Source: Streptomyces phaeolivaceus
Lineage (GTDB): Bacteria > Actinomycetota > Actinomycetes > Streptomycetales > Streptomycetaceae
Assembly: GCF_009184865.1 (NCBI RefSeq)
Contig: NZ_CP045096.1
Location: 6,200,001-6,264,000 of the forward strand
Length of the DNA: 64,000 nt
Direction of reading: 5' to 3'
A program made the position numbers and the translations under genes. Below the pieces are notes generated by a model. That model saw only the letters and a program-made list of their open reading frames with translations. It made no database searches and had not been told where the DNA came from. Shown one piece after another: positions 1,102-13,822 of the stretch. The first letter of the stretch is position 1; each line of letters opens with the position of its first letter.

Positions 1102-2014
1102 ATGACCACGGTTGTGCATCCACCGTCGCGACCGATGTCGGTGAGCGACAACGCGGCGCGGACCCTGGCGAACGCCACCAAGACCGTTCCGCAGATGGCC
1201 TCGATCACGCCTCGCTGGCTGGTGCATCTGCTCTCCTGGGTGCCCGTCGAGGCCGGTATCTACCGGGTGAACAAGGTCGTTCACCCCGAGTCCGTGCACA
1301 TCGAGTGCGACAACTACGACGAGTCGCCGCTGCCCGACACCTTCGTCGACTACTCGCAGGAGCCTCGGGAGTACCGGCTCAAGGCGGTCCAGACCGTCCT
1401 GGACCTGCACACCCGGATCGCCGACCTGTACTCCAGCCCGCACGACCAGACCGCGCAGCAGCTGCGGCTCACCATCGAGGCGGTGAAGGAGCACCAGGAG
1501 GGTGAGCTGATCAACAGTCCGGAGTACGGGATGCTGAGCAGCGCGGTGCCCGCGCAGCGGATCTCCACGATGACGGGGCCGCCGACACCCGACGACCTGG
1601 ACGCCCTCATCACCAAGGTGTGGAAGCAGCCCGCCTTCTTCCTCACCCACCCGGAAGGGATCGCCGCGTTCGGCCGGGAGTGCACCCGGCGCGGGGTTCC
1701 GCCGGCCACGGTGAGCATGTTCGGCTCGCAGTTCCTGACCTGGCGCGGTCTGCCGATCATTCCGTCGGACAAGGTGCCGCTGGAGAACGGGAAGACCAAG
1801 TTCCTGCTGCTGCGCACGGGCGAGTCGCGGCAGGGCGTGGTCGGACTGTTCCAGCCGGGGCTCGCCGGGGAGCAGGGGATGGGGCTGTCGGTGCGCTTCA
1901 TGCAGATCGACCGCAGCGCCATCGCCTCCTATCTGGTCTCCCTGTACTGCTCGCTCGCGGTGCTCACCGAGGACGCGCTCGCCGTGCTCGACGACGTCGA
2001 CGTGGACAAGTTCC

Positions 2015-2040
<26 letters not shown>
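1102..2040 (+). CDS. Family 2A encapsulin nanocompartment shell protein
   Basis: The 312-residue product matches family 2A encapsulin shells (HK97 capsid fold, SrpI type). Recognisable segments are NSPEYGML, ISTMTGPPTPDDLDAL, FGRECTRRGVPP, TWRGLPIIPSDKVP, LLRTGESRQGVVGL and LSVRFMQIDRSAIASYLVSLY. It lacks the cyclic-nucleotide-binding insertion of family 2B. The ATG at 1102 is 8 nt after AAGGAG and gives MTTVVHPPSR; an upstream in-frame extension has no ribosome-binding site. The coding region overlaps the cargo gene by 26 bp, so the two are translationally coupled. Many subunits should assemble into a cytosolic shell around the desulfurase. Known relatives store elemental sulfur or serve sulfur metabolism; that role is transferred by family here. 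Confidence 0.93.
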
Positions 2041-3826
<1,786 letters not shown>

Positions 3827-5124: not shown

Positions 5125-5475
5125 TCAACGCGCTGTGCGGTCGTCGGGTCGGGGTGGGGGTGGCGGCGTGGGGGCGGGGGTTTCGCGGCTCACCTCGTGG
5201 TGGTGGCCGGTCGGGCCCGGGAGGGGTTTGAGGTCTACCTGGATGCGGTGGGTGGAGTCGTGGCTCACCGAGCCGCCCAGGCGTGCCTCGACCACGCCCA
5301 GGCGGAGGCCCGCTCCGGCCTCGCCGGTGCGGTGGAACTGGACCGCGAACTCCAGGCTGACCTGCTCCACGGTGAAACGCCAGTCGCTCGCGGCGCCCTC
5401 GGCCTGCGCTCGGGCCAGTTCCGCCCGGACCGTGGCGATGGCCTCCGCGAGACCCACCGGTTCGGTATCGCCCAT
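5125..5475 (-). CDS. Trypco2-family protein (trypsin co-occurring domain 2)
   Basis: This 116-residue protein starts MGDTEPVGLAEAIATVRAEL. A central beta-rich segment (VSLEFAVQFHRTGEAGAGLR) is followed by THRIQVDLKP, the pattern of the small trypco2 domain. The domain is named for its habitual neighbourhood to trypsin-like proteases in predicted NTP-dependent conflict or signalling systems. The tail is a Pro-rich low-complexity stretch. The gene is divergent from the trypsin-like gene with only 92 bp between starts, which fits shared control. No signal peptide is visible, so it is probably cytosolic. Its biochemical role is unknown. Confidence 0.78.
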   Translation of the reverse strand: MGDTEPVGLAEAIATVRAELARAQAEGAASDWRFTVEQVSLEFAVQFHRTGEAGAGLRLGVVEARLGGSVSHDSTHRIQVDLKPLPGPTGHHHEVSRETPAPTPPPPPRPDDRTAR

Positions 5476-5567
5476 GTCAACACCTCTTCGGATCGAGTGG
5501 ATCGGCCGAGTCGAGTTGGTTCACGAGTCTAGGGACCCACCATGCCCCGCGCGTAGTGTGAGGTGGC

Positions 5568-6971
5568 ATGGGGGAATTGCGTGCGGACTGGAGGCTCCGG
5601 CTGAGACGCGGGGGCGCGCGGGGACCCGTCTGCGGTGCCGGGGTGCTCGTCGATCAGGACACGGCACTGACCTGTGCGCATGTGGTGCGCGTCCCGGACG
5701 CCGTGATGTGGGTGGAGTTCGCCGAGAACAGTGAGATCGAGGCGGTCTCCGCGCGCGTTCCGCCCGGCGGATGGCTCGTCGAGGGCCATGGCGAGGGCGA
5801 GGGTGGTGAGGACGTCGCCGTGCTGCGGCTCGACAGTCCTCGGCCCCAGGCGCGTCCCGCCCGGCTGGAGACCGCGCTGTGGGGCGGGATGGAGGTGTCC
5901 GCCACCGGGTACGCGGAGGGCTTCGACGACGGGATGAGCCTGTGGGGGCGGATCGGCGGGGTCAGCGGTGAGCGGGTGCAGCTCGACGCCGTCACCAAGG
6001 CCGAGGTGGTGCGCCGGGGGTTCAGCGGGGCCGCCGTGTGCACCCGGCCGGGGGAGGGGCGGCCCGCCCGGGTGGTCGGGCTCGTCGTCAGCTGGCGCGG
6101 TGACATGGGTGAACTGCTGCCCGAGAACAACCGGCTGGCCTTCTCCTATCTGATTCCCGTCGCGCGGATCGCCGAACTCTCGCCGGTGGTTGAGGAGTTG
6201 AGCGGGCCGGATGCCTGGGACCATGGATTCGAGGAGCGGTTGAGCCGGTGGTTCGGGGATCCTGACGAGGAGCCGGTGAAGATCACCGTGGTGCCGCCCG
6301 GGAGCGGGAAGCGCCGCTCCCTGCGGCATCTGCTGCATCGCGCCGACCTCGTCTACCGGGGCGGCGGCTCCAGCAGACCGGACCTCGCCGACCACGCCCT
6401 GGGGCATATCGCGTTCCCGCCGGGTCGGTATCTGGCGTACTGGGACTGGCTGCTCGGCACCGGGCCCCGGCCCGATCGGACGCCCGGCCGGCCCGAACTG
6501 ACGCCCGGCCCCCCGCCCGCCTCCGCCGCCGACCACATCCCCTTCGCGGCCCCCGTCTCCGGCCGCGGCGTCACGGTCGTCGTCGACGGTCTCGACGAAG
6601 AGCCCGAGCCCGGCCCGCTGATCGAACTCCTCGCCCGATTGAGGTCGTTCGGCTTCCGGGCGCTGCTGGTCTTCCGGCACGAGGGCGGTACGGGCTGGAC
6701 CGCCGCCCGGGACGTACTCCTCGGGCCCGCCCTCCTCGCCCACGCCGACGCGCTGCTGGTACGGCTGGAGCGGGCGGAGTTCAGCCGCGCGGTGCGGCAC
6801 GGTGTCGTCGACAGCGCCTCCCTCGGCTCGCTGACCGAGACCGCCGACCGGCGCAGGAGCGAGCGCCGACGCATCGACGAGACCATCGATCCGCAGCAAC
6901 GGCTCGCCCGTTCACGTGAGTTGATCAGAACCCTGCGCGCCGACCTGCGGCGCTCCGGGGACCGGGGATGA
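5568..6971 (+). CDS. Trypsin-like serine protease with C-terminal degenerate NTPase module
   Basis: The 467-residue protein carries an N-terminal trypsin-fold protease with triad H38 (LTCAHVV), D82 (GEDVAVLRL) and S153 (GFSGAAV). There is no signal peptide, so it should act in the cytoplasm. From about residue 238 a second module begins with a P-loop-like VVPPGSGKRRS, lacking the usual GKT/S ending, and a Walker-B-like VTVVVDGLDEE. It ends early for a STAND-type NTPase, so it may be degenerate or regulatory. Its stop overlaps the kinase start (ATGA), making it the first gene of a translationally coupled operon. Divergence from a trypco2 gene supports a conflict-type protease; the substrate is unknown. 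Confidence 0.85.
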   Translation: MGELRADWRLRLRRGGARGPVCGAGVLVDQDTALTCAHVVRVPDAVMWVEFAENSEIEAVSARVPPGGWLVEGHGEGEGGEDVAVLRLDSPRPQARPARLETALWGGMEVSATGYAEGFDDGMSLWGRIGGVSGERVQLDAVTKAEVVRRGFSGAAVCTRPGEGRPARVVGLVVSWRGDMGELLPENNRLAFSYLIPVARIAELSPVVEELSGPDAWDHGFEERLSRWFGDPDEEPVKITVVPPGSGKRRSLRHLLHRADLVYRGGGSSRPDLADHALGHIAFPPGRYLAYWDWLLGTGPRPDRTPGRPELTPGPPPASAADHIPFAAPVSGRGVTVVVDGLDEEPEPGPLIELLARLRSFGFRALLVFRHEGGTGWTAARDVLLGPALLAHADALLVRLERAEFSRAVRHGVVDSASLGSLTETADRRRSERRRIDETIDPQQRLARSRELIRTLRADLRRSGDRG

Positions 6972-9355
6972 ACTCCACCGCCGGGCGCCACGGGCAGGGG
7001 CACGCGGACCGGCAGCGGGTGGAGGGCGGGCGGGCGGCCGTCTGTCCGCATCGGCGGTTCAGCGGTGCCCCCTGCGGTGGTGTCCTGCTGCCCACCGGTC
7101 ACTGTGCCGAGTGCGGTCGCGCGGAGGACGGGCCCCGGTTGCCCGCGCTGCCCCGGGAGGCCCGTGAGTTCGGTCCCGCCGTGCTGCTCGCGCTGCCCGA
7201 GCGGGCGCCGCGTCCCGCGCAGGAGCGGCTCATCCACCCCGAGGCCCCGCTGCGCGTCCGCATGGTCTGCTCGTCCCCGGACTGCGGGATCACCTTCGCG
7301 CCGCCGTACACCGTGGGGCCGGTGCCGGTCGAGGGGTACTGTCCGGCCTGCGGCGAGCCGTACTCGTACCGGCCCGAACTCGCCGAGGGCGATGTGCTGC
7401 GCGACCAGTACCGGATCATGGGGCCCATCGCGCACGGCGGGCAGGGCTGGGTCTATCTCGCCGAGGACACGCATCTCGGTGACGTGGTCGCCGTCAAGGG
7501 CATGCTCAACCGCTACGAGCGGGACGGGGCCCGGCTCGCCGACGTCGAGCGCCGCAACCTCGTCGCCATCCGCCACCCCCGTATCGTCCAGATCCGCGAC
7601 TTCGTCGCCCGGCGCGACGGAAACGGGCAGGTCACCGGCGGCTACATCGTCATGGACGACGTCGGTGACGGCACCCTCGAGAAGGTCGTCAAGGAGACCC
7701 GGCGCGGGGAGTCCGTCCTCGACATCGAGCACGTGGCCGCGTACGGCTGCCAGATCCTCGAAGCGCTCGTCCATCTGCACGCGGGCGGCGAGAAGGGCTT
7801 CGTGTACGGGGACATGAAGCCCTCGAACGTCGTGCACCACGGGGACGGCGTCAAGGTCATCGATCTCGGCGGGATGCGGGAGCGGGGCCAGAGCCGGCCG
7901 CCCGCCCATGTCACGCCCGACTACATGGCGCCCGAGACGGCGTCCGCCGCCATGCCCACCACCGCCCACGACCTCCACACGGTCGGTGTCACCCTGCGGG
8001 AACTCGCCGGCTGGGCCGTCGACGAGGTCCCCGGCCTCGGCACCGCCTCCTTCCGGGGCGTCGTCGACCGGGCCACGCGCGGCGATCCCGGTCTGCGGTT
8101 CGCCGACGCCCGCGAGATGGCGGGCCAACTGCGCGGCGCGCTGCGGGAGATCCGCGCCCTGCGCGGCAAGAGCGACCCGCCCGAACCCTCCGACTACTTC
8201 TGGCCGTCCCCGCAACTGCTCGGCGCCCGGCTCGGCACGGTCCCCGGCATCGAGCACTGGCTCGACCGCCCGCGCCGCGACCGCTACGACCCGCCCCTCG
8301 CCCCCGCCCTCGACCTCGGCGCCCCCACCCTCACCGAGATAGCCCGTCGGCTGCCGGTGCCCCGGCGCTACCCGGGCGATCCGCAGACCGCCCGGTTCGA
8401 GGTCAGCAGCGGTTACGACCCGGACCGGCTCCTCGACCAGGAGGACGGCAGACCGCCCTCGGTGGAGATCCGGCTGCACAACGTACGGGTCCTGCTGGGA
8501 CGGGACACCCGGGACATCCGGGACGACCTGGAGCGGGCGCAGGAGGAACTCGACACCGCCGACTCCATCCCCGGGCCCTCCGCCGTGCGCCGATGGCGGC
8601 TGGAGTGGCATCGCGCGCTGGTCGCGCTGCGCCGGGCCGACCTGGACGACGACCCCCGGCGGGTCGCCGAGGCCAGGGGCCACTTCGCCCGGGTCCGCCT
8701 CGAACTGCCCGGTGAGTACGCGCCCAAGCTGGCCCTCGCCTACTGCGGGGAGCGGCTCGGCGACGACAGTGCCGGGCCCACCGCGAAGGAGCTGTACGAG
8801 GCCGTGTTCGCCCGCAACCCCGCGCATGGCGGCGCCGCCCTCGGGCTCGCACGGCTCGCGCTCCGCGCGGGCGACCGGCGCGCCGCGCTCGACGTCCTCG
8901 GCCGGGTGCGCCCCGGCACCCTGGACCACACCGTCACCCGTATCGCCTCCCTGCGCATCCGCGCGGCCCGGCTGCCCCGGAACGGCGATCCGCTGCCCGA
9001 GCCCGCCGAGGTCGACGCGGCCCTCGCCGAACTGCGCGGCCTCGTCCGCCGGGAGCCGGGGGCGGGTGGGCCGAGCCTGTCGGAGGACGAGGCGCTGCGC
9101 CTCGGTACCGAGCTGCACGAATGGAAGCTCGACGCGCTGTACAGCCGCGACGACCGGCCCGGCCCCCGGGGCGGGGGCGGTGCCGGGCGGCTCGATGTCC
9201 GTGCGCTGCGTGGCCTCGGTGCGCAGGAGCGGCGGCTGCGTGCCCGTATCGAGTCCTACTACCGGCAACTGGCCGCCCGGCACGGGGAGTCGGCCGCCGC
9301 GCATGAGCATCTCGTGGATCTTTCGCTGGCGGTGCGTCCGCAGACGGTGGTGTGA
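6968..9355 (+). CDS. PknG-like serine/threonine protein kinase with zinc ribbons and TPR region
   Basis: The 795-residue protein has an unusual N-terminus with two Cys clusters: CPHRRFSGAPC with CAECG, and CSSPDCG with CPACGEPY. These suggest zinc-ribbon or rubredoxin-like sites as in PknG. A kinase domain follows at about residues 140-395, with Gly-loop AHGGQGWVYLAED, lysine in VVAVKGM, catalytic loop FVYGDMKPSNVV (YGD in place of HRD) and DLGG in place of DFG. Both substitutions are PknG-like. The C-terminal ~400 residues are helical and Ala/Leu-rich, consistent with TPRs. Downstream genes for a four-TM protein and a solute-binding protein mirror mycobacterial glnX-glnH-pknG. The kinase is soluble and probably receives a signal through the membrane partner. 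Confidence 0.88.
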   Translation: MNSTAGRHGQGHADRQRVEGGRAAVCPHRRFSGAPCGGVLLPTGHCAECGRAEDGPRLPALPREAREFGPAVLLALPERAPRPAQERLIHPEAPLRVRMVCSSPDCGITFAPPYTVGPVPVEGYCPACGEPYSYRPELAEGDVLRDQYRIMGPIAHGGQGWVYLAEDTHLGDVVAVKGMLNRYERDGARLADVERRNLVAIRHPRIVQIRDFVARRDGNGQVTGGYIVMDDVGDGTLEKVVKETRRGESVLDIEHVAAYGCQILEALVHLHAGGEKGFVYGDMKPSNVVHHGDGVKVIDLGGMRERGQSRPPAHVTPDYMAPETASAAMPTTAHDLHTVGVTLRELAGWAVDEVPGLGTASFRGVVDRATRGDPGLRFADAREMAGQLRGALREIRALRGKSDPPEPSDYFWPSPQLLGARLGTVPGIEHWLDRPRRDRYDPPLAPALDLGAPTLTEIARRLPVPRRYPGDPQTARFEVSSGYDPDRLLDQEDGRPPSVEIRLHNVRVLLGRDTRDIRDDLERAQEELDTADSIPGPSAVRRWRLEWHRALVALRRADLDDDPRRVAEARGHFARVRLELPGEYAPKLALAYCGERLGDDSAGPTAKELYEAVFARNPAHGGAALGLARLALRAGDRRAALDVLGRVRPGTLDHTVTRIASLRIRAARLPRNGDPLPEPAEVDAALAELRGLVRREPGAGGPSLSEDEALRLGTELHEWKLDALYSRDDRPGPRGGGGAGRLDVRALRGLGAQERRLRARIESYYRQLAARHGESAAAHEHLVDLSLAVRPQTVV

Positions 9356-9403
9356 GGGGGGGAGTGCGGATGGGAGTGCGGATGGGAGTGGGTGGGGGTC
9401 GGG

Positions 9404-9490
9404 TGCGGGTTCGGTGGGGCTTCTCGCGCCCACGCGGCGGAGCCGCATATCGGTACAGCCCCGCGCCCCTTGAGGGCCTGCGGCCCTCTC
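9404..9490. repeat. Variant dispersed repeat inside the kinase operon
   Basis: The 154-bp gap between the kinase and vWA genes holds GTGCGGGTTCGGTGGGGCTT. This matches the outer arm of the full palindromic repeat at 19335 except for one base. It is followed by a different core with GCGGCGGAGCCGC and GCCCCGCGCCCCTT. Just upstream are short GGGAGTGCGGAT repeats. This is a variant of the dispersed intergenic element and can fold into hairpins that might lower readthrough into the rest of the operon. Confidence 0.65.
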
Positions 9491-9509
9491 AGCCGACGCG
9501 GGAGGAACC

Positions 9510-10970
9510 GTGACCGACGACATGAGCGGGCATGACGGTGGGCAGCTCGGTGCGGACGGGGGTGGGCGTGTCGGTAGCCGGGCGCGCGGTCGGGGCCGGG
9601 CGGTGCTGCCCGAGATTCGGTTGCGGGTCGATCTCGGGGGTGATCTGCGGCCGCATCGCAGTGCGAAGATCGAGGCGCATCTGCGGGTGGACGTCACCGC
9701 CGGGGGCGCGCCCGCCGAGCTGCCCGCGATCGAACTCGCGGTGATCATCGCGGTCGATGTGGCGGAGCCCCTGCGGGCGGCCGTCCGGCACGCGCTGCCG
9801 GCCGCGTTGCGGGCGCTGCCCGACGGCATCTCCTTCACCGTGCTCGGCGCCGGGCCCGAGCCCGTCCGCTGCCATCCGGGGGACGACGCCGAGTGGGCCG
9901 TCGCCGACGGGCGCGAGAAGCGGCGGGCCGCCTTCGCCGCCGGGGCGCTCCCGCTGCACCGGGACGGTCCGCGCCCCGCCGGATACGCCGTCTGGGCCGC
10001 CGGAGCGCGCGCCCTGCTCGCCGCGCGCCCGTTGTCCGTACGGCATCTGCTGCTGATCACCGACGGCAGCAGCGCGCCCGGCGAGACCCGGCTCGACGAG
10101 GAACTCGACCTCTGCGCCGGGCACTTCACCTGCGATGTGCTCGCCGTGGGCGCGGACTGGACCCCGGAGCCGCTGCTGACGCTCGCGGAACGGCTGCACG
10201 GCACCGCCGAGTTCGTGGACGACGGCCTCGGCGCCGCGATCACCGCCGCGATCCGGCGGCTGCGCCGCGTGCACGCCCCGCAGCTGCCGATCGAGGTGAC
10301 CGTCCGGCCCTCGGTGCGGCAGGTCGCGCTGAACGAGAAGGCGCCCCGGCCGCACCGGCTCGGCGGGCTGCCCCAGCCGGGCCGGCCGCACCGCTGGAGC
10401 TTTCCGACGTACCAGTGGGAGGAGGGCGGGCGCGACTATCTGCTCACGCTCGTCGCCGACGCCGACCACGATCCGCTGGAGACGTATCTGCAGTTCGCCA
10501 TGGTCTCCGTCGGCGATGTCCACGCGGCCGTCACCGCCCGCTGGCACCGCCCCGAGCTGCCGCCGCCCGACCTGCCGGCGGGCGCCGCCAGCGTGCGCGA
10601 CCAGAAGTCCACCACCGTGATGCGGGAGGCCCTGCGCCGGGGGCTCGTGGCGCTCGGGGAGGAGCGACGGGACGCCGCCCAGGGGCACTTGGGGCGCGCC
10701 GCGCGCCTGGCGGACCGGTTCGGCACGGACTGGGTGCTGGACGAGATCCGCGCGGTCGCCGACATCGAGGACGCGCCCGCGGGGCGGGTCCGGCTGCGGT
10801 CCGCCGTCGCCGCCGACACGCTCGGGCCGATGATCCTGCGGGCCGGCTCCCGGCCCGTGCCCCTGACCGACACCGGCGGTCCGCGACCGGGCCCGCGCTG
10901 CGTCCGCTGCGCCACCCCGGCCGGGGGCGAGGCGCGCTACTGCATCGCCTGCGGGGAGAAGCTGCTGTGA
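9510..10970 (+). CDS. vWA domain protein with C-terminal zinc ribbon
   Basis: The 486-residue product starts at a GTG with GGAGGAA just upstream. A von Willebrand A fold lies at about residues 70-260. The MIDAS DxSxS position reads IIAVDVAEPLR, so it is degenerate, while LLLITDGSS is kept. A beta-rich domain and helical segment follow. The end is a zinc ribbon, CVRCATPAGGEARYCIACG. The N-terminus is Gly/Arg-rich. It is a probable scaffold between the soluble kinase and the membrane parts, since zinc ribbons also occur on the kinase. It overlaps the next gene by GTGA. Confidence 0.82.
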   Translation: MTDDMSGHDGGQLGADGGGRVGSRARGRGRAVLPEIRLRVDLGGDLRPHRSAKIEAHLRVDVTAGGAPAELPAIELAVIIAVDVAEPLRAAVRHALPAALRALPDGISFTVLGAGPEPVRCHPGDDAEWAVADGREKRRAAFAAGALPLHRDGPRPAGYAVWAAGARALLAARPLSVRHLLLITDGSSAPGETRLDEELDLCAGHFTCDVLAVGADWTPEPLLTLAERLHGTAEFVDDGLGAAITAAIRRLRRVHAPQLPIEVTVRPSVRQVALNEKAPRPHRLGGLPQPGRPHRWSFPTYQWEEGGRDYLLTLVADADHDPLETYLQFAMVSVGDVHAAVTARWHRPELPPPDLPAGAASVRDQKSTTVMREALRRGLVALGEERRDAAQGHLGRAARLADRFGTDWVLDEIRAVADIEDAPAGRVRLRSAVAADTLGPMILRAGSRPVPLTDTGGPRPGPRCVRCATPAGGEARYCIACGEKLL

Positions 10971-12079
10971 CGGCCCCACGTCCGGCCCCACGTCCGGCCC
11001 CACGCGAGGCCCCACGTGCGACGTCACGCCGCCGACTCCCGCGCTCCCCCGGGCGTGGGCGTGGGCTCGGGCTCGCGCGCTCCCTCGGTCTCGGCGCGTT
11101 CTGGCGGGCGCGGCTGAGCGGGTGGCGGACCCGGCGGCTGCTGGAGGCGCATCTGCTGATCCTGACGGTGTGCGCGCTCGTGGCGGCCGGCGCCCTGTTC
11201 GTGTCGTGCCGGCAGATCCAGGGCGGCGCCGGGGCGCTCGCCGACGAGGAGGCCCCGGCCGTGCAGGGGCTCGCCGCCACCCGGCTCGCGGTGCTGCGCG
11301 CCGACCACGAGGCCCGTGTCCTCGGCAAGTTGGAGCTGGTCGACGTGGCGGGCTCCGGCGAGACCTACCGGGCCCAGCTCTCCGCGGCCGACCAGGGGCT
11401 GTCCAGGATCGCGGACCGTACGGACCAGGACCTCGGCACCGTCAACGGGCTGCTCGCCACCTACAGCAACTCCCTCAACCTCGGCACGGCGATGTACCGG
11501 GACCAGCCCCTCATGCGGAAGCAGAAGCTCGCCGAGGCGCGCTCGCTGCTCGTCCGGCCGGGTGTGGGACTGGTGCCCCGGCTGCACGACATGCAGCGGG
11601 TCCAGCTGAGGCACGCCGAGGCCACCGCCACCGAGGGGTGGTTGCAGCGGAGCGGCTGGTGGCTCGCGGAACTCGCCCTGGCCGCGCTGGCGTTGACCCT
11701 GCTCTCCGCGCTGTTCGTGCTGCGCGACCGCTGTGGCCGCGACTGGAACCCGTATCTGCTCGCGGCCTTCGCCCTGACCGTGCTGCTCGCCGTCGTCCCG
11801 CTGCTGACGATGGCGTCGGCGCAGGACGACCTGGACAGGGTGGTCGCGGATCTGGGGGAGATCACCGAGGCGTCCCGGCAGCGCTGCTGCGACGAGGGGC
11901 TGGCCGCCGCGCAGCAGAGCGTCACGGAGCGGTCCGAGGACGTGCGGCGCGTCCTGGCCGACGACACCTGGACCGACCGGGTCTACCAGGGCACCCTGAC
12001 CGGCGGCCTGCTGATCGTCGTCCTGCCCGCGCTGGGGCTCGGCCTCCGGCTCGACAGCGACTACTGGAGGCGGCGATGA
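10967..12079 (+). CDS. Four-TM membrane protein, GlnX-like sensor partner
   Basis: This 370-residue protein begins with a GTG overlapping the vWA stop. Its N-terminus is rich in Arg/Pro repeats (TAPRPAPRPAPREAPR). Transmembrane segments are visible at LLILTVCALVAAGALFV, LAELALAALALTLLSALFV, LLAAFALTVLLAVVPLL and GTLTGGLLIVVLPALGLGL. A large loop of about 140 residues lies between TM1 and TM2 and a shorter Cys-containing loop (EASRQRCCDEG) between TM3 and TM4. A membrane protein between a PknG-like kinase and a solute-binding protein matches GlnX of mycobacteria in position and general form. I infer it relays ligand binding inward; sequence homology to GlnX was not tested. Confidence 0.72.
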   Translation: MTAPRPAPRPAPREAPRATSRRRLPRSPGRGRGLGLARSLGLGAFWRARLSGWRTRRLLEAHLLILTVCALVAAGALFVSCRQIQGGAGALADEEAPAVQGLAATRLAVLRADHEARVLGKLELVDVAGSGETYRAQLSAADQGLSRIADRTDQDLGTVNGLLATYSNSLNLGTAMYRDQPLMRKQKLAEARSLLVRPGVGLVPRLHDMQRVQLRHAEATATEGWLQRSGWWLAELALAALALTLLSALFVLRDRCGRDWNPYLLAAFALTVLLAVVPLLTMASAQDDLDRVVADLGEITEASRQRCCDEGLAAAQQSVTERSEDVRRVLADDTWTDRVYQGTLTGGLLIVVLPALGLGLRLDSDYWRRR

Positions 12080-13374
12080 CCCGGCGGTTCAAGGTGCTGG
12101 TGCTGCTGGTGGCGTTGGTGCTGGTCTCGGCCGGCAGCATGGTGGCGGTCTGGTCGGAGCGGGACGACGCGCCGGTGACCATTCTCGGGCCGTGGACCGA
12201 CGAGCAGGGCGAGCAGTTCGAGGAGGTGCTGCGGGGCTTCGGCATCCCCTTCGAGTACCAGGGCACCGCGGCCCAGCGCGAGGTGCTGCTGTCCAAGGTG
12301 CAGTCGGGGGAACCCCCGGACATCGCGATCATGCCGGGCGTCGGCGAACTCGCCGAGTACGCCGGCCAGAACCGCCTCAAGCCGCTCAACGACCTCTACG
12401 CGCGGGAGGAGTACGGCGCCCCCTGGAACCCGGTGAGCGAGTCCTCCGAGGACGCGGACGGGAACGCCGACGGGAACGCCGACGGGAATGCCGACGAGGA
12501 CGCGTACTGGGTCCCGGTCAAGGCGGACCTGAAAAGCATCGTCTGGTATCGCGAGGGCGAGCGCCCGGCGAACTCGCCTGCCCCGTTGGAGAGTTGGTGC
12601 ATCGGGATGGGGGACGACGGCGCCTCCGGCTGGCCCGGCAGCGACTGGATCGAGGACCTCGTCCTGCAGCGGGAGGGCCCGGACGTCTACGAGGGGTGGG
12701 CACGCGGCGACGCCGAGGTGCCCTGGACCGGCGACTCCGTGCGCGGCGCCTGGGAGGCGTGGGCCGGGCTGCTCAGGCAGGACCGGAAGTCGGCCCGGCG
12801 CGCCCTGCTCACCGACCACCGCGGCGAACCCGACGGACACGGCCTCCTCTTCGACGCGCCGGACGGCTGCGCCCTGGAACACCAGGGTTCCTTCGCCCGC
12901 TCCTTCTACGGCACACAACGGCGGCAGGCGGGCCTGATGGACTCCGCCCCGCTGCTGCCGGGCGGCGGCTACCGGGTCCGGGCCCACGAGGTGACCGGCG
13001 ACTTCGCCGCGCTGTTCGGCGACCGCCCCCGGGCCCGCGACCTCATCGAACGGCTGGCCTCCAGGGCGGGCCAGCAGAAGTGGGCCGACGCGGCGGACGT
13101 CTTCTCGGCGAACCGCCGGGTACGACCGGGGGACAGCCCCCTCGAACAGGAGATCGCCCGACGACTCACCGGCACGGGGCGCCGCTGCCTCGACGCCTCC
13201 GACGTCATGCCCCCCGCCGTCCGCGACGCCTTCTACGAGGCCGTCCTCCTCACCATCGCCCGCGCGGCGGCCGGGGAGGACCTCGACGTGGCGGCACTGC
13301 TGACGGACGTACAGAACGTGGCCGCGGCACAGCCGGACCGGGGGCCGGCCTTGCGGACGGTGTGCAGCGCGTAG
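12076..13374 (+). CDS. Extracytoplasmic solute-binding protein, GlnH-like role
   Basis: The 432-residue protein has an N-terminal hydrophobic segment (VLVLLVALVLVSAGSMVAVW) without a lipobox cysteine, so it is secreted or membrane-anchored rather than lipidated. The rest resembles a class II/extracellular solute-binding fold (VTILGPWTDEQGEQFEEVL, then DIAIMPGVGELAEYA). An acidic tandem repeat (DGNADGNADGNADED, about residues 134-148) sits in a loop and looks like a metal-binding stretch. It overlaps the four-TM gene by ATGA and ends the operon. No ABC permease or ATPase is nearby, so sensing rather than import is likely. The ligand is unknown. Confidence 0.8.
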   Translation: MTRRFKVLVLLVALVLVSAGSMVAVWSERDDAPVTILGPWTDEQGEQFEEVLRGFGIPFEYQGTAAQREVLLSKVQSGEPPDIAIMPGVGELAEYAGQNRLKPLNDLYAREEYGAPWNPVSESSEDADGNADGNADGNADEDAYWVPVKADLKSIVWYREGERPANSPAPLESWCIGMGDDGASGWPGSDWIEDLVLQREGPDVYEGWARGDAEVPWTGDSVRGAWEAWAGLLRQDRKSARRALLTDHRGEPDGHGLLFDAPDGCALEHQGSFARSFYGTQRRQAGLMDSAPLLPGGGYRVRAHEVTGDFAALFGDRPRARDLIERLASRAGQQKWADAADVFSANRRVRPGDSPLEQEIARRLTGTGRRCLDASDVMPPAVRDAFYEAVLLTIARAAAGEDLDVAALLTDVQNVAAAQPDRGPALRTVCSA

Positions 13375-13380
13375 GCGGGG

Positions 13381-13629
13381 ACTACTTCTCCGGTGCCGGT
13401 GCCGGTGCCGGTGCCGGTGTCGGTGCCGGGGGCCCGGCCGGGGTCCCCGGGATGATCAGGCCCGTCTCGTAGGCGACCACGACGGCCTGGGCAAGGTCGC
13501 GGAGGCGGAGTTTGGCGAGGATGCGGGCGACATGGGTCTTGACCGTGGCCTCGCTGAGGCGGAAGTGGGCGGCCAGTTCGGTGTTGCTCAGGCCGGGGTC
13601 ACGGGTGCGACGACCGTCGTGGGCTCGGC
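13381..13629 (-). pseudogene. Remnant of a NarL/LuxR-type response regulator (C-terminal HTH only)
   Basis: The minus strand encodes a reading frame with LSNTELAAHFRLSEATVKTH followed by VARILAKLRLRDLAQAV and VVAYETGLI. This is the last three-quarters of a LuxR-type HTH, followed by a Pro/Ala tail and a stop at about 13382. The usual LTPRE start of the HTH and the whole receiver domain are missing; upstream the frame runs into unrelated sequence. It is a truncated gene abutting an FtsX permease remnant on the other strand, which suggests a deletion that removed most of a two-component/ABC locus. Confidence 0.72.
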
Positions 13630-13782
13630 ATGACCCTCCCGACCACCGACCTCGCCGTGTACGACGTCCCCGTACTCACCGCCCTCACCCTCGGCGGCCT
13701 CCTCATCGCGACCACGGGCGCCCTCCTCCCCGCCCTCTGGGCGGCCCGCACGACCACGACGACGGCCCTGAGGACGGAGTAG
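13630..13782 (+). pseudogene. Remnant of an FtsX-like ABC permease (C-terminal end)
   Basis: A 50-codon frame begins with an ATG and holds one hydrophobic segment (LTALTLGGLLIATTGALLPA) followed by LWAARTTTTTALRTE and a stop. That is how FtsX-family permeases end: last TM helix, then PAxxAARxxxxxALRxE. No ribosome-binding site precedes it and the other TM helices are absent. It abuts the LuxR remnant, so the junction near 13625 is probably a deletion endpoint. Confidence 0.7.
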
Positions 13783-13822
13783 CCAAGAAGAATGAGGAAG
13801 AAGAGGAAGCCCCGCCCCCCAA

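Follow-up and report, generated by a model that had tools for sequence, protein, structure and literature searches.

The GlnH-GlnX-PknG system of mycobacteria and corynebacteria senses amino acids for metabolism, and in the available text of the articles that describe it (PMC6069109, PMC8546545, PMC9769921) the signalling model is put forward as a proposal with genetic support. The available text of PMC6069109 also notes Streptomyces kinase genes that are linked to genes for solute-binding proteins (SBPs), namely SGR_4432 and SCO1468. PknG itself has been much studied, and in those parts of the literature that could be consulted the roles of its operon partners beyond GlnH and GlnX are largely unasked. 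Trypsin-like domains and trypco2 (trypsin-co-occurring domain 2) belong to another body of work, the predicted conflict systems of Kaur et al. (2020; PMC7159879). Here we describe a locus from Streptomyces phaeolivaceus in which parts of both kinds stand together, found in a stretch of 64,000 nucleotides (NZ_CP045096.1, positions 6,200,001 to 6,264,000; hereafter the window). A trypco2 gene lies divergent from an operon for a trypsin-like protease, a PknG-like Ser/Thr kinase, a vWA protein, a receptor-like protein with four transmembrane (TM) segments and a membrane-anchored SBP. Sequence comparison makes it probable, if not firmly so, that the locus is a re-plumbed PknG operon, in which the kinase responds to a ligand outside the cell and in turn controls a cytosolic protease. 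This exact operon set was not found in print in the open-licence literature.

The same genome carries a canonical PknG operon (G000:C2:3130000-3149000) in the order GlnX-GlnH-coiled coil-PknG-PP2C-vWA-FHA. Its GlnX scores 471.4 bits (cut-off 250) and the rubredoxin domain of its PknG 100.8 bits, its GlnH belongs to SBP_bac_3, its PP2C carries a zinc ribbon, and the gene after the canonical vWA gene encodes an FHA protein in 6 of 6 scanned loci (nine were looked at). What the window operon has retained is a PknG-type kinase with its TPR domain, a four-TM receptor of the GlnX type and the PknG-operon vWA in the kinase neighbourhood, and in both operons the SBP is an orphan. What has changed is the sensor and the output. 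GlnH is replaced by an SBP of family 1 (the canonical one is of family 3), and a protease takes the place of the coiled-coil protein in the slot immediately before the kinase. PP2C and FHA are missing, with no FHA family match among the six proteins, the gene order is different, and the kinase belongs to a separate clade. A further arrangement is seen in the PknG operons of family f85 (L270, L271, L273-L276), where the GlnX/GlnH pair stands downstream of the vWA gene in reverse orientation.

The preliminary description of this locus had called the kinase PknG-like and had named its phylogeny as a check, and the assignment stands. In a first quick tree the kinase sits in a PknG group that is separated from seven outgroup kinases with an SH-aLRT support of 100; it has a PknG_TPR domain, and the closest solved structure is that of MtbPknG (2pzi, 2.6e-60). 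The protein consists of an N-terminal Cys cluster, a rubredoxin-like C-x4-C / C-x2-C region, the kinase domain and a PknG-type TPR domain. The catalytic residues are kept in 95 of 95 readable rows of the alignment. Among further strains with a relative of this kinase is S. viridosporus ATCC 14672. The rubredoxin family PF16919 is matched at 19.8 bits (25.3 in another scan), under its cut-off of 28.5, with all four Cys present in the window; across relatives these Cys are kept in 76-77 of 96 rows, with 18-20 gaps. The first tree also unites the 28 new-type Streptomyces rows in one clade with a support of 97, while all 32 new rows, including the long branches L137 and L154-L156, are joined at a support of 31 only and L143 (family f85) is unplaced. 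In a second quick tree, of 88 new and nine canonical rows, new and canonical kinases are split at 100. A recent tandem duplication of the canonical operon was considered and rejected: at L045, L046 and L184 the new operon lies directly beside the canonical one, and these three are nested inside the new clade, so their adjacency does not mark the origin of the new type.

Relatives of the locus were sampled by way of the SBP, so that loci that have lost the SBP are not counted. The sample holds 116 loci, 115 of them with the SBP and 106 distinct, and 91 of the distinct loci have at least 9 kb of upstream DNA. The SBP is found at E 1e-65 or better in 115 of 295 Streptomyces genomes; among 345 genomes at class level 19 have it at 284 bits or more (the next score is 214), seven of these outside the genus. 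A phylum-wide search covered a sample made up mostly of small genomes without PknG. Trypsin and a PknG-like kinase occur together in 77 of the 91 distinct loci, with the receptor detected in 74. Separate genes for trypsin, kinase, vWA and receptor accompany the SBP in 69, of which 33 also have a divergent trypco2 gene, and three more (L154-L156) have the full set, their receptor having diverged too far for the profile to detect it. A further four combine a trypsin-kinase fusion with trypco2 and the receptor and have no vWA gene. The odd cases are L183, where the SBP stands alone, and two loci with runs of N where a gene is missing, L179 at trypsin and L224 at vWA (trypsin is present in L224). 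L138 is cut by a contig end. These counts bear out the expectation of the preliminary description that the genes co-occur beyond one strain, and the operon is a real conserved unit, more than a chance arrangement.

A rival view, that the trypsin/trypco2 pair is merely beside a PknG paralogue by chance or hitch-hiking, could draw on the optional nature of trypco2 and on the 14 of 91 loci without trypsin (in L179 that place has a run of N). It is strongly disfavoured, indeed very improbable, since the detected parts keep one order throughout all 91 distinct loci, among relatives whose SBP is down to 34% identical, since trypsin proteins share an adaptor domain with the canonical slot protein, since neighbouring genes are fused in relatives, and since the tree does not show one recent transfer of the loci.

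The sensor had previously been described as fused. No fusion exists within the window, and the word holds only for relatives, in which several neighbouring pairs are joined. Trypsin and kinase form one protein in four distinct loci (L068, L070, L153 and L203; one change on the second tree), vWA and receptor in one (L229), and receptor and SBP in eight (L043, L052, L182, L197, L216, L223, L226 and L228). The last kind accounts for three changes on the second tree, which lacks L182 and L197, and L197 is read as a fourth place on the first tree. All eight receptor-SBP proteins have a fifth hydrophobic stretch before the SBP part, which would therefore lie outside the cell. Separate trypsin and vWA genes are concordant in 87 of 87 tree rows, 72 with both and 15 with neither; this count omits L179, with its run of N, and the tree is without L224 (short kinase piece), L150 (kinase not called) and L183 (no kinase). 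We read this as a sign that a separate protease may have to be held by the vWA protein, and that a protease joined to the kinase in a single chain may not.

By profile comparison the four-TM protein is a remote relative of GlnX (probability 97.4, E 1.2e-11). Against the GlnX family NF058618 it scores 23.2 bits over residues 132-291 only and does not reach the cut-off of 250, and it is here called GlnX-like and not classed as GlnX. Its structural model is all helical (pLDDT 85.6) with four hydrophobic segments, in agreement with four TM helices and helical bundles outside the membrane, and a fold search in the PDB gave no match at E 0.001 or better. The preliminary description spoke of a GlnH-like sensor, a likeness that has to be dropped for the SBP: hhalign against the canonical GlnH gives a probability of 0.1, the family matched is SBP_bac_1 instead of SBP_bac_3, and GlnH is found near the SBP in none of the 91 loci (PP2C in three only, all adjoining a canonical operon). 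The N-terminus of the SBP is a hydrophobic anchor with no lipobox match, and the operon has no transporter genes. The profile matches of the SBP in the PDB are sugar and chito-oligosaccharide binders (best 1.5e-6). Glycan-degrading genes, GH101 and PL8, stand directly upstream of the operon in one relative from a sister subclade (L041:679-6919).

The vWA protein is not a conflict part. It is a standing member of PknG operons, and inherited from them, because the canonical operon of the same genome has a vWA gene in the kinase neighbourhood. The metal-binding MIDAS residues are lost in the window protein, and the DxSxS motif is absent throughout the window's subclade and present in relatives of the L047-L063 type and in the canonical vWA. 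A degenerate vWA as hallmark of the whole family was rejected, the metal site being intact in other subclades and in the canonical protein; the loss is a derived state of the window's subclade.

The trypsin-like protein has no hydrophobic leader by eye and is presumably cytosolic. Its catalytic triad is well kept among relatives (His in 67 of 67, Asp in 68 of 68 and Ser in 68 of 69 readable rows). Behind the trypsin domain lies an alpha/beta region with a Walker-like motif, whose Walker A Lys is kept in only 16 of 70 rows. The motifs PPGSGK and VVVDGLDE of this region, and the trypsin-NACHT proteins beside the other trypco2 genes of the genome, raise the idea of a decayed STAND/NACHT domain; Pfam gives NPHP3_N only at E 0.28, a comparison with 121 NACHT pieces reached a profile probability of 1.9 as the best of nine comparisons, which is not significant, and the matches listed for the protease model by VIA/Foldseek were trypsins only, covering the trypsin part alone. 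The three trypco2 matches of the genome all adjoin trypsin-domain genes, and each of the other two (L236, L237) precedes a trypsin-NACHT protein. As a part of the operon neighbourhood trypco2 is optional: 37 of the 91 distinct relatives have the gene divergent from the operon, and none of 100 loci (counted before duplicates were removed) has it on the operon strand.

Of all genes in the operon, it is the one immediately before the kinase that varies. For trypsin proteins whose tail exceeds 110 residues (45 rows with duplicates), a profile of the tails matches that of the last 100 residues in the canonical coiled-coil protein with a probability of 98.2 (E 5.4e-14), compared with at most 0.3 for eight unrelated profiles and 0.4 for 32 short tails, including that of the window. 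This shared adaptor domain has no Pfam name; it shows the pattern xELRGRL...PCDL...AExAV (for example L003:6800-8125, alignment A7). A profile made from the canonical proteins only finds 28 of 79 trypsin proteins at over 15 bits. A joint profile detects the domain next to the kinase in 43 of the 77 loci with trypsin; this likeness to the canonical operon is weakened in that some of the sequences behind the joint profile are trypsin tails selected with the canonical one. The count is limited to genes beside the kinase and excludes matches in a canonical neighbour (L045, L046) and a far match (L200). Of the 34 trypsin loci in which the domain is missing, 26 belong to the window's subclade, four have the trypsin-kinase fusion, and the others are L045, L046, L184 and L200; the joint profile does not find it in the 14 loci without trypsin or in the window, and the window's subclade seems to have lost it. 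Matches occur in 98 of 394 genomes of the class, in many actinobacteria in the gene directly upstream of PknG, and in 20 fetched loci (mainly of family f85) the matching gene is beside PknG, PP2C or vWA genes of this type.

In two f85 genomes with a complete kinase-vWA-receptor-SBP operon (L143, L268) the slot protein consists of EAD1 and the adaptor domain, with EAD1 at 55.0 and 44.8 bits (cut-off 24.2); five other f85 slot proteins had no Pfam match. These two genomes have 18 and 26 EAD1 matches, and the window genome and G632, both with trypsin in the slot, have none. Five of the EAD1 proteins were scanned, and gave two TIR, two STAND-type regions (one under the cut-off) and one EAD2. In L143, at a distance of two called genes before the slot gene with EAD1, a single protein combines TIR, kinase and NMT1-type solute-binding domains (L143:2589-5294). 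In the available text of Kaur et al. (PMC7159879) EAD1 is an adaptor by which effectors are recruited when they are not themselves fused to the system, and by analogy trypsin or EAD1 in the slot fits the pattern described there, of a direct effector or a recruiting adaptor. Since EAD1 replaces trypsin in these genomes, the slot would be one for output rather than for an internal regulator. This exchange speaks against a second rival explanation, in which the protease is directed at its own pathway, where cleavage of kinase, vWA or receptor would end or start the signal, and in which the kinase has its output at another place in the cell. Translational coupling of trypsin in the window, its fusion to the kinase in one clade and the ability of vWA domains to bind peptides (PMC7159879, available text) would agree with such self-cleavage, which we regard as unlikely.

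In the re-plumbed operon an extracellular ligand, perhaps a glycan, would bind the anchored SBP, the unit of SBP and receptor would then shift its conformation, and the kinase, docked by its TPR domain, would be switched. Kinase, vWA and slot protein would form one complex, from which kinase activity would release or activate the protease to cut cytosolic targets; the adaptor domain, where present, may tie the protease to the kinase, and trypco2 probably restrains or positions it. A signal from outside may thus lead through to protein cutting in the cytosol. The path from outside sensor through membrane protein and kinase to protease had been proposed in the preliminary description and gains support from the gene fusions and the slot comparison. 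If the proposal is true, the PknG operon is a general chassis with exchangeable sensor and output, in which kinase, receptor, vWA and adaptor domain tend to stay, and SBP sensing is linked to proteolysis and to EAD1 effector networks. The adaptor domain would then be a testable link between PknG and its upstream partner, also in canonical operons.

Several points weigh against this proposal. Twelve of the 91 loci have kinase, receptor and SBP only, so the protease is not needed for the sensor part. The fetched DNA of L139-L141 (SBP and receptor, outside the genus), L142 and L183 (SBP) holds no kinase. Trypco2 shows 11 changes on the second tree. Trypsin and vWA change in step at three tree places (sign test p 0.25), and their link is not significant because three independent changes are too few. 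With neither adaptor domain nor vWA metal site in its subclade, the window copy is one from which the proposed docking is unreadable. A sugar ligand for the SBP is a guess at family level, and any activity, phosphorylation, binding or phenotype would be a prediction from sequence comparison.

The function served is a separate matter. It is possible, and less probable than the proposal itself, that the operon is a glycan or nutrient switch for regulated proteolysis in metabolism and has no defence role. The protease would then trim some enzyme or regulator, in a counterpart to the control of the TCA cycle by PknG and OdhI. The metabolic role of PknG, GlnX and GlnH in amino acid sensing (the three articles cited above) agrees with this explanation, as does the lack of a defence island among the 10 flanking window proteins scanned, and the sugar-type SBP and the GH101 and PL8 genes beside L041 point to a glycan ligand and keep it alive. 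It fits less well with trypco2 beside trypsin, with an operon that unlike the canonical one has no FHA gene, with the patchy distribution of the SBP within Streptomyces, and with a slot that also takes EAD1, a conflict adaptor that has TIR and STAND-type proteins among its partners in the two f85 genomes. EAD1 and trypco2 would point to conflict, and a role in defence or cell death is plausible; we lean to a conflict role, given that EAD1 is what can stand in the slot instead of trypsin. More tentatively, PknG-type operons might be the modular core of an envelope-facing conflict system, in which SBP and receptor read an outside molecule, the kinase relays and a swappable slot protein delivers the effector. 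The ligand would then be a competitor's glycan, wall material released by phage or a product of the cell's own lysis, and the effector would be either trypsin, delivered directly as a protease, or whichever protein carries EAD1 (TIR, STAND). If so, this would be a bacterial circuit resembling a death receptor, with its trigger outside the cell and not in an invader that has already entered.

Features of the locus are collected in Table 1. The six genes lie where the preliminary description had placed them, and all of its coordinates were recovered. Its account of the junctions holds for the single gap; 4-bp overlaps occur at three of the four junctions between the five plus-strand genes (6968-6971, 10967-10970 and 12076-12079), not at four. 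The gap varies among relatives, and its dispersed repeat has 45 copies in the genome at up to three mismatches (reversed control 0).

Table 1. Features of the trypco2-protease-kinase locus (positions in the window)
Feature	Position	Strand	Remarks
trypco2 gene	5125-5475	-	PF19631 91.8 bits, cut-off 24.2; divergent from operon
Divergent intergenic region, 92 bp	5476-5567		Both promoters expected, from position between two start codons
Trypsin-like protease gene	5568-6971	+	Trypsin_2 40.8 bits; triad His38-Asp82-Ser153
PknG-like Ser/Thr kinase gene	6968-9355	+	PknG_TPR 96.6 bits (cut-off 27); Pkinase 80.1 (cut-off 31.7)
Kinase-vWA gap, 154 bp	9356-9509		One dispersed-repeat copy at 9435-9469
vWA protein gene	9510-10970	+	VWA_3 123.2 bits; degenerate MIDAS; C-terminal zinc ribbon-like CxxC pair
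Four-TM helical receptor-like protein gene	10967-12079	+	Remote GlnX relative by profile comparison
Membrane-anchored SBP gene	12076-13374	+	SBP_bac_1 27.8 bits

To the left of the locus (1135-3826, plus strand) a gene for an SrpI-like type 2A encapsulin shell is followed by one for a class-V aminotransferase (cysteine desulfurase-like), a pair that we take to be a known kind of encapsulin operon. To the right two gene remnants abut (13380-13783), by eye a minus-strand LuxR-type HTH end and a plus-strand C-terminus of permease type; they may be the scar of an old rearrangement. A search of the six proteins against PADLOC-DB gave nothing specific, namely kinase-domain matches (25 of the 30 families listed) and weak matches of the trypsin to RT-proteases.

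Among predicted conflict systems, the trypco2-trypsin conflict proteins of Kaur et al. (2020), with the two trypsin-NACHT proteins of this genome as examples, also have trypco2 beside a trypsin-like domain; the window protease is without a recognised NTPase, the operon has no MoxR, VMAP or GTPase, and control of the window operon would fall to an outside-sensing kinase chain. It does not qualify as a MoxR-vWA ternary (VMAP) system, having no MoxR ATPase (no AAA/MoxR family match in the six proteins up to E 1). The actinobacterial kinase-PP2C-vWA module of the GAP1-N2 systems, as given in the available text of Kaur et al., likewise places a zinc-ribbon kinase beside a standalone vWA, and the window operon differs from it in lacking GAP1, GTPase and PP2C. 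The words 'PknG' and 'solute' do not occur in the main text of the same article, as far as available. Predicted conflict systems nevertheless offer a precedent for a sensor of SBP type, since in some variants of its System 4 a TM helix is followed by a periplasmic-binding-protein domain that lies outside the cell. The core of System 4, by the same text, is EACC1 with a caspase, in contrast to the PknG kinase and GlnX-like receptor found here. EAD1-coupled systems are approached by the two f85 genomes with EAD1 in the trypsin slot before kinase, vWA, receptor and SBP; the window itself has no EAD1, and the core that it shares with those two genomes is an operon built around a PknG-type kinase.

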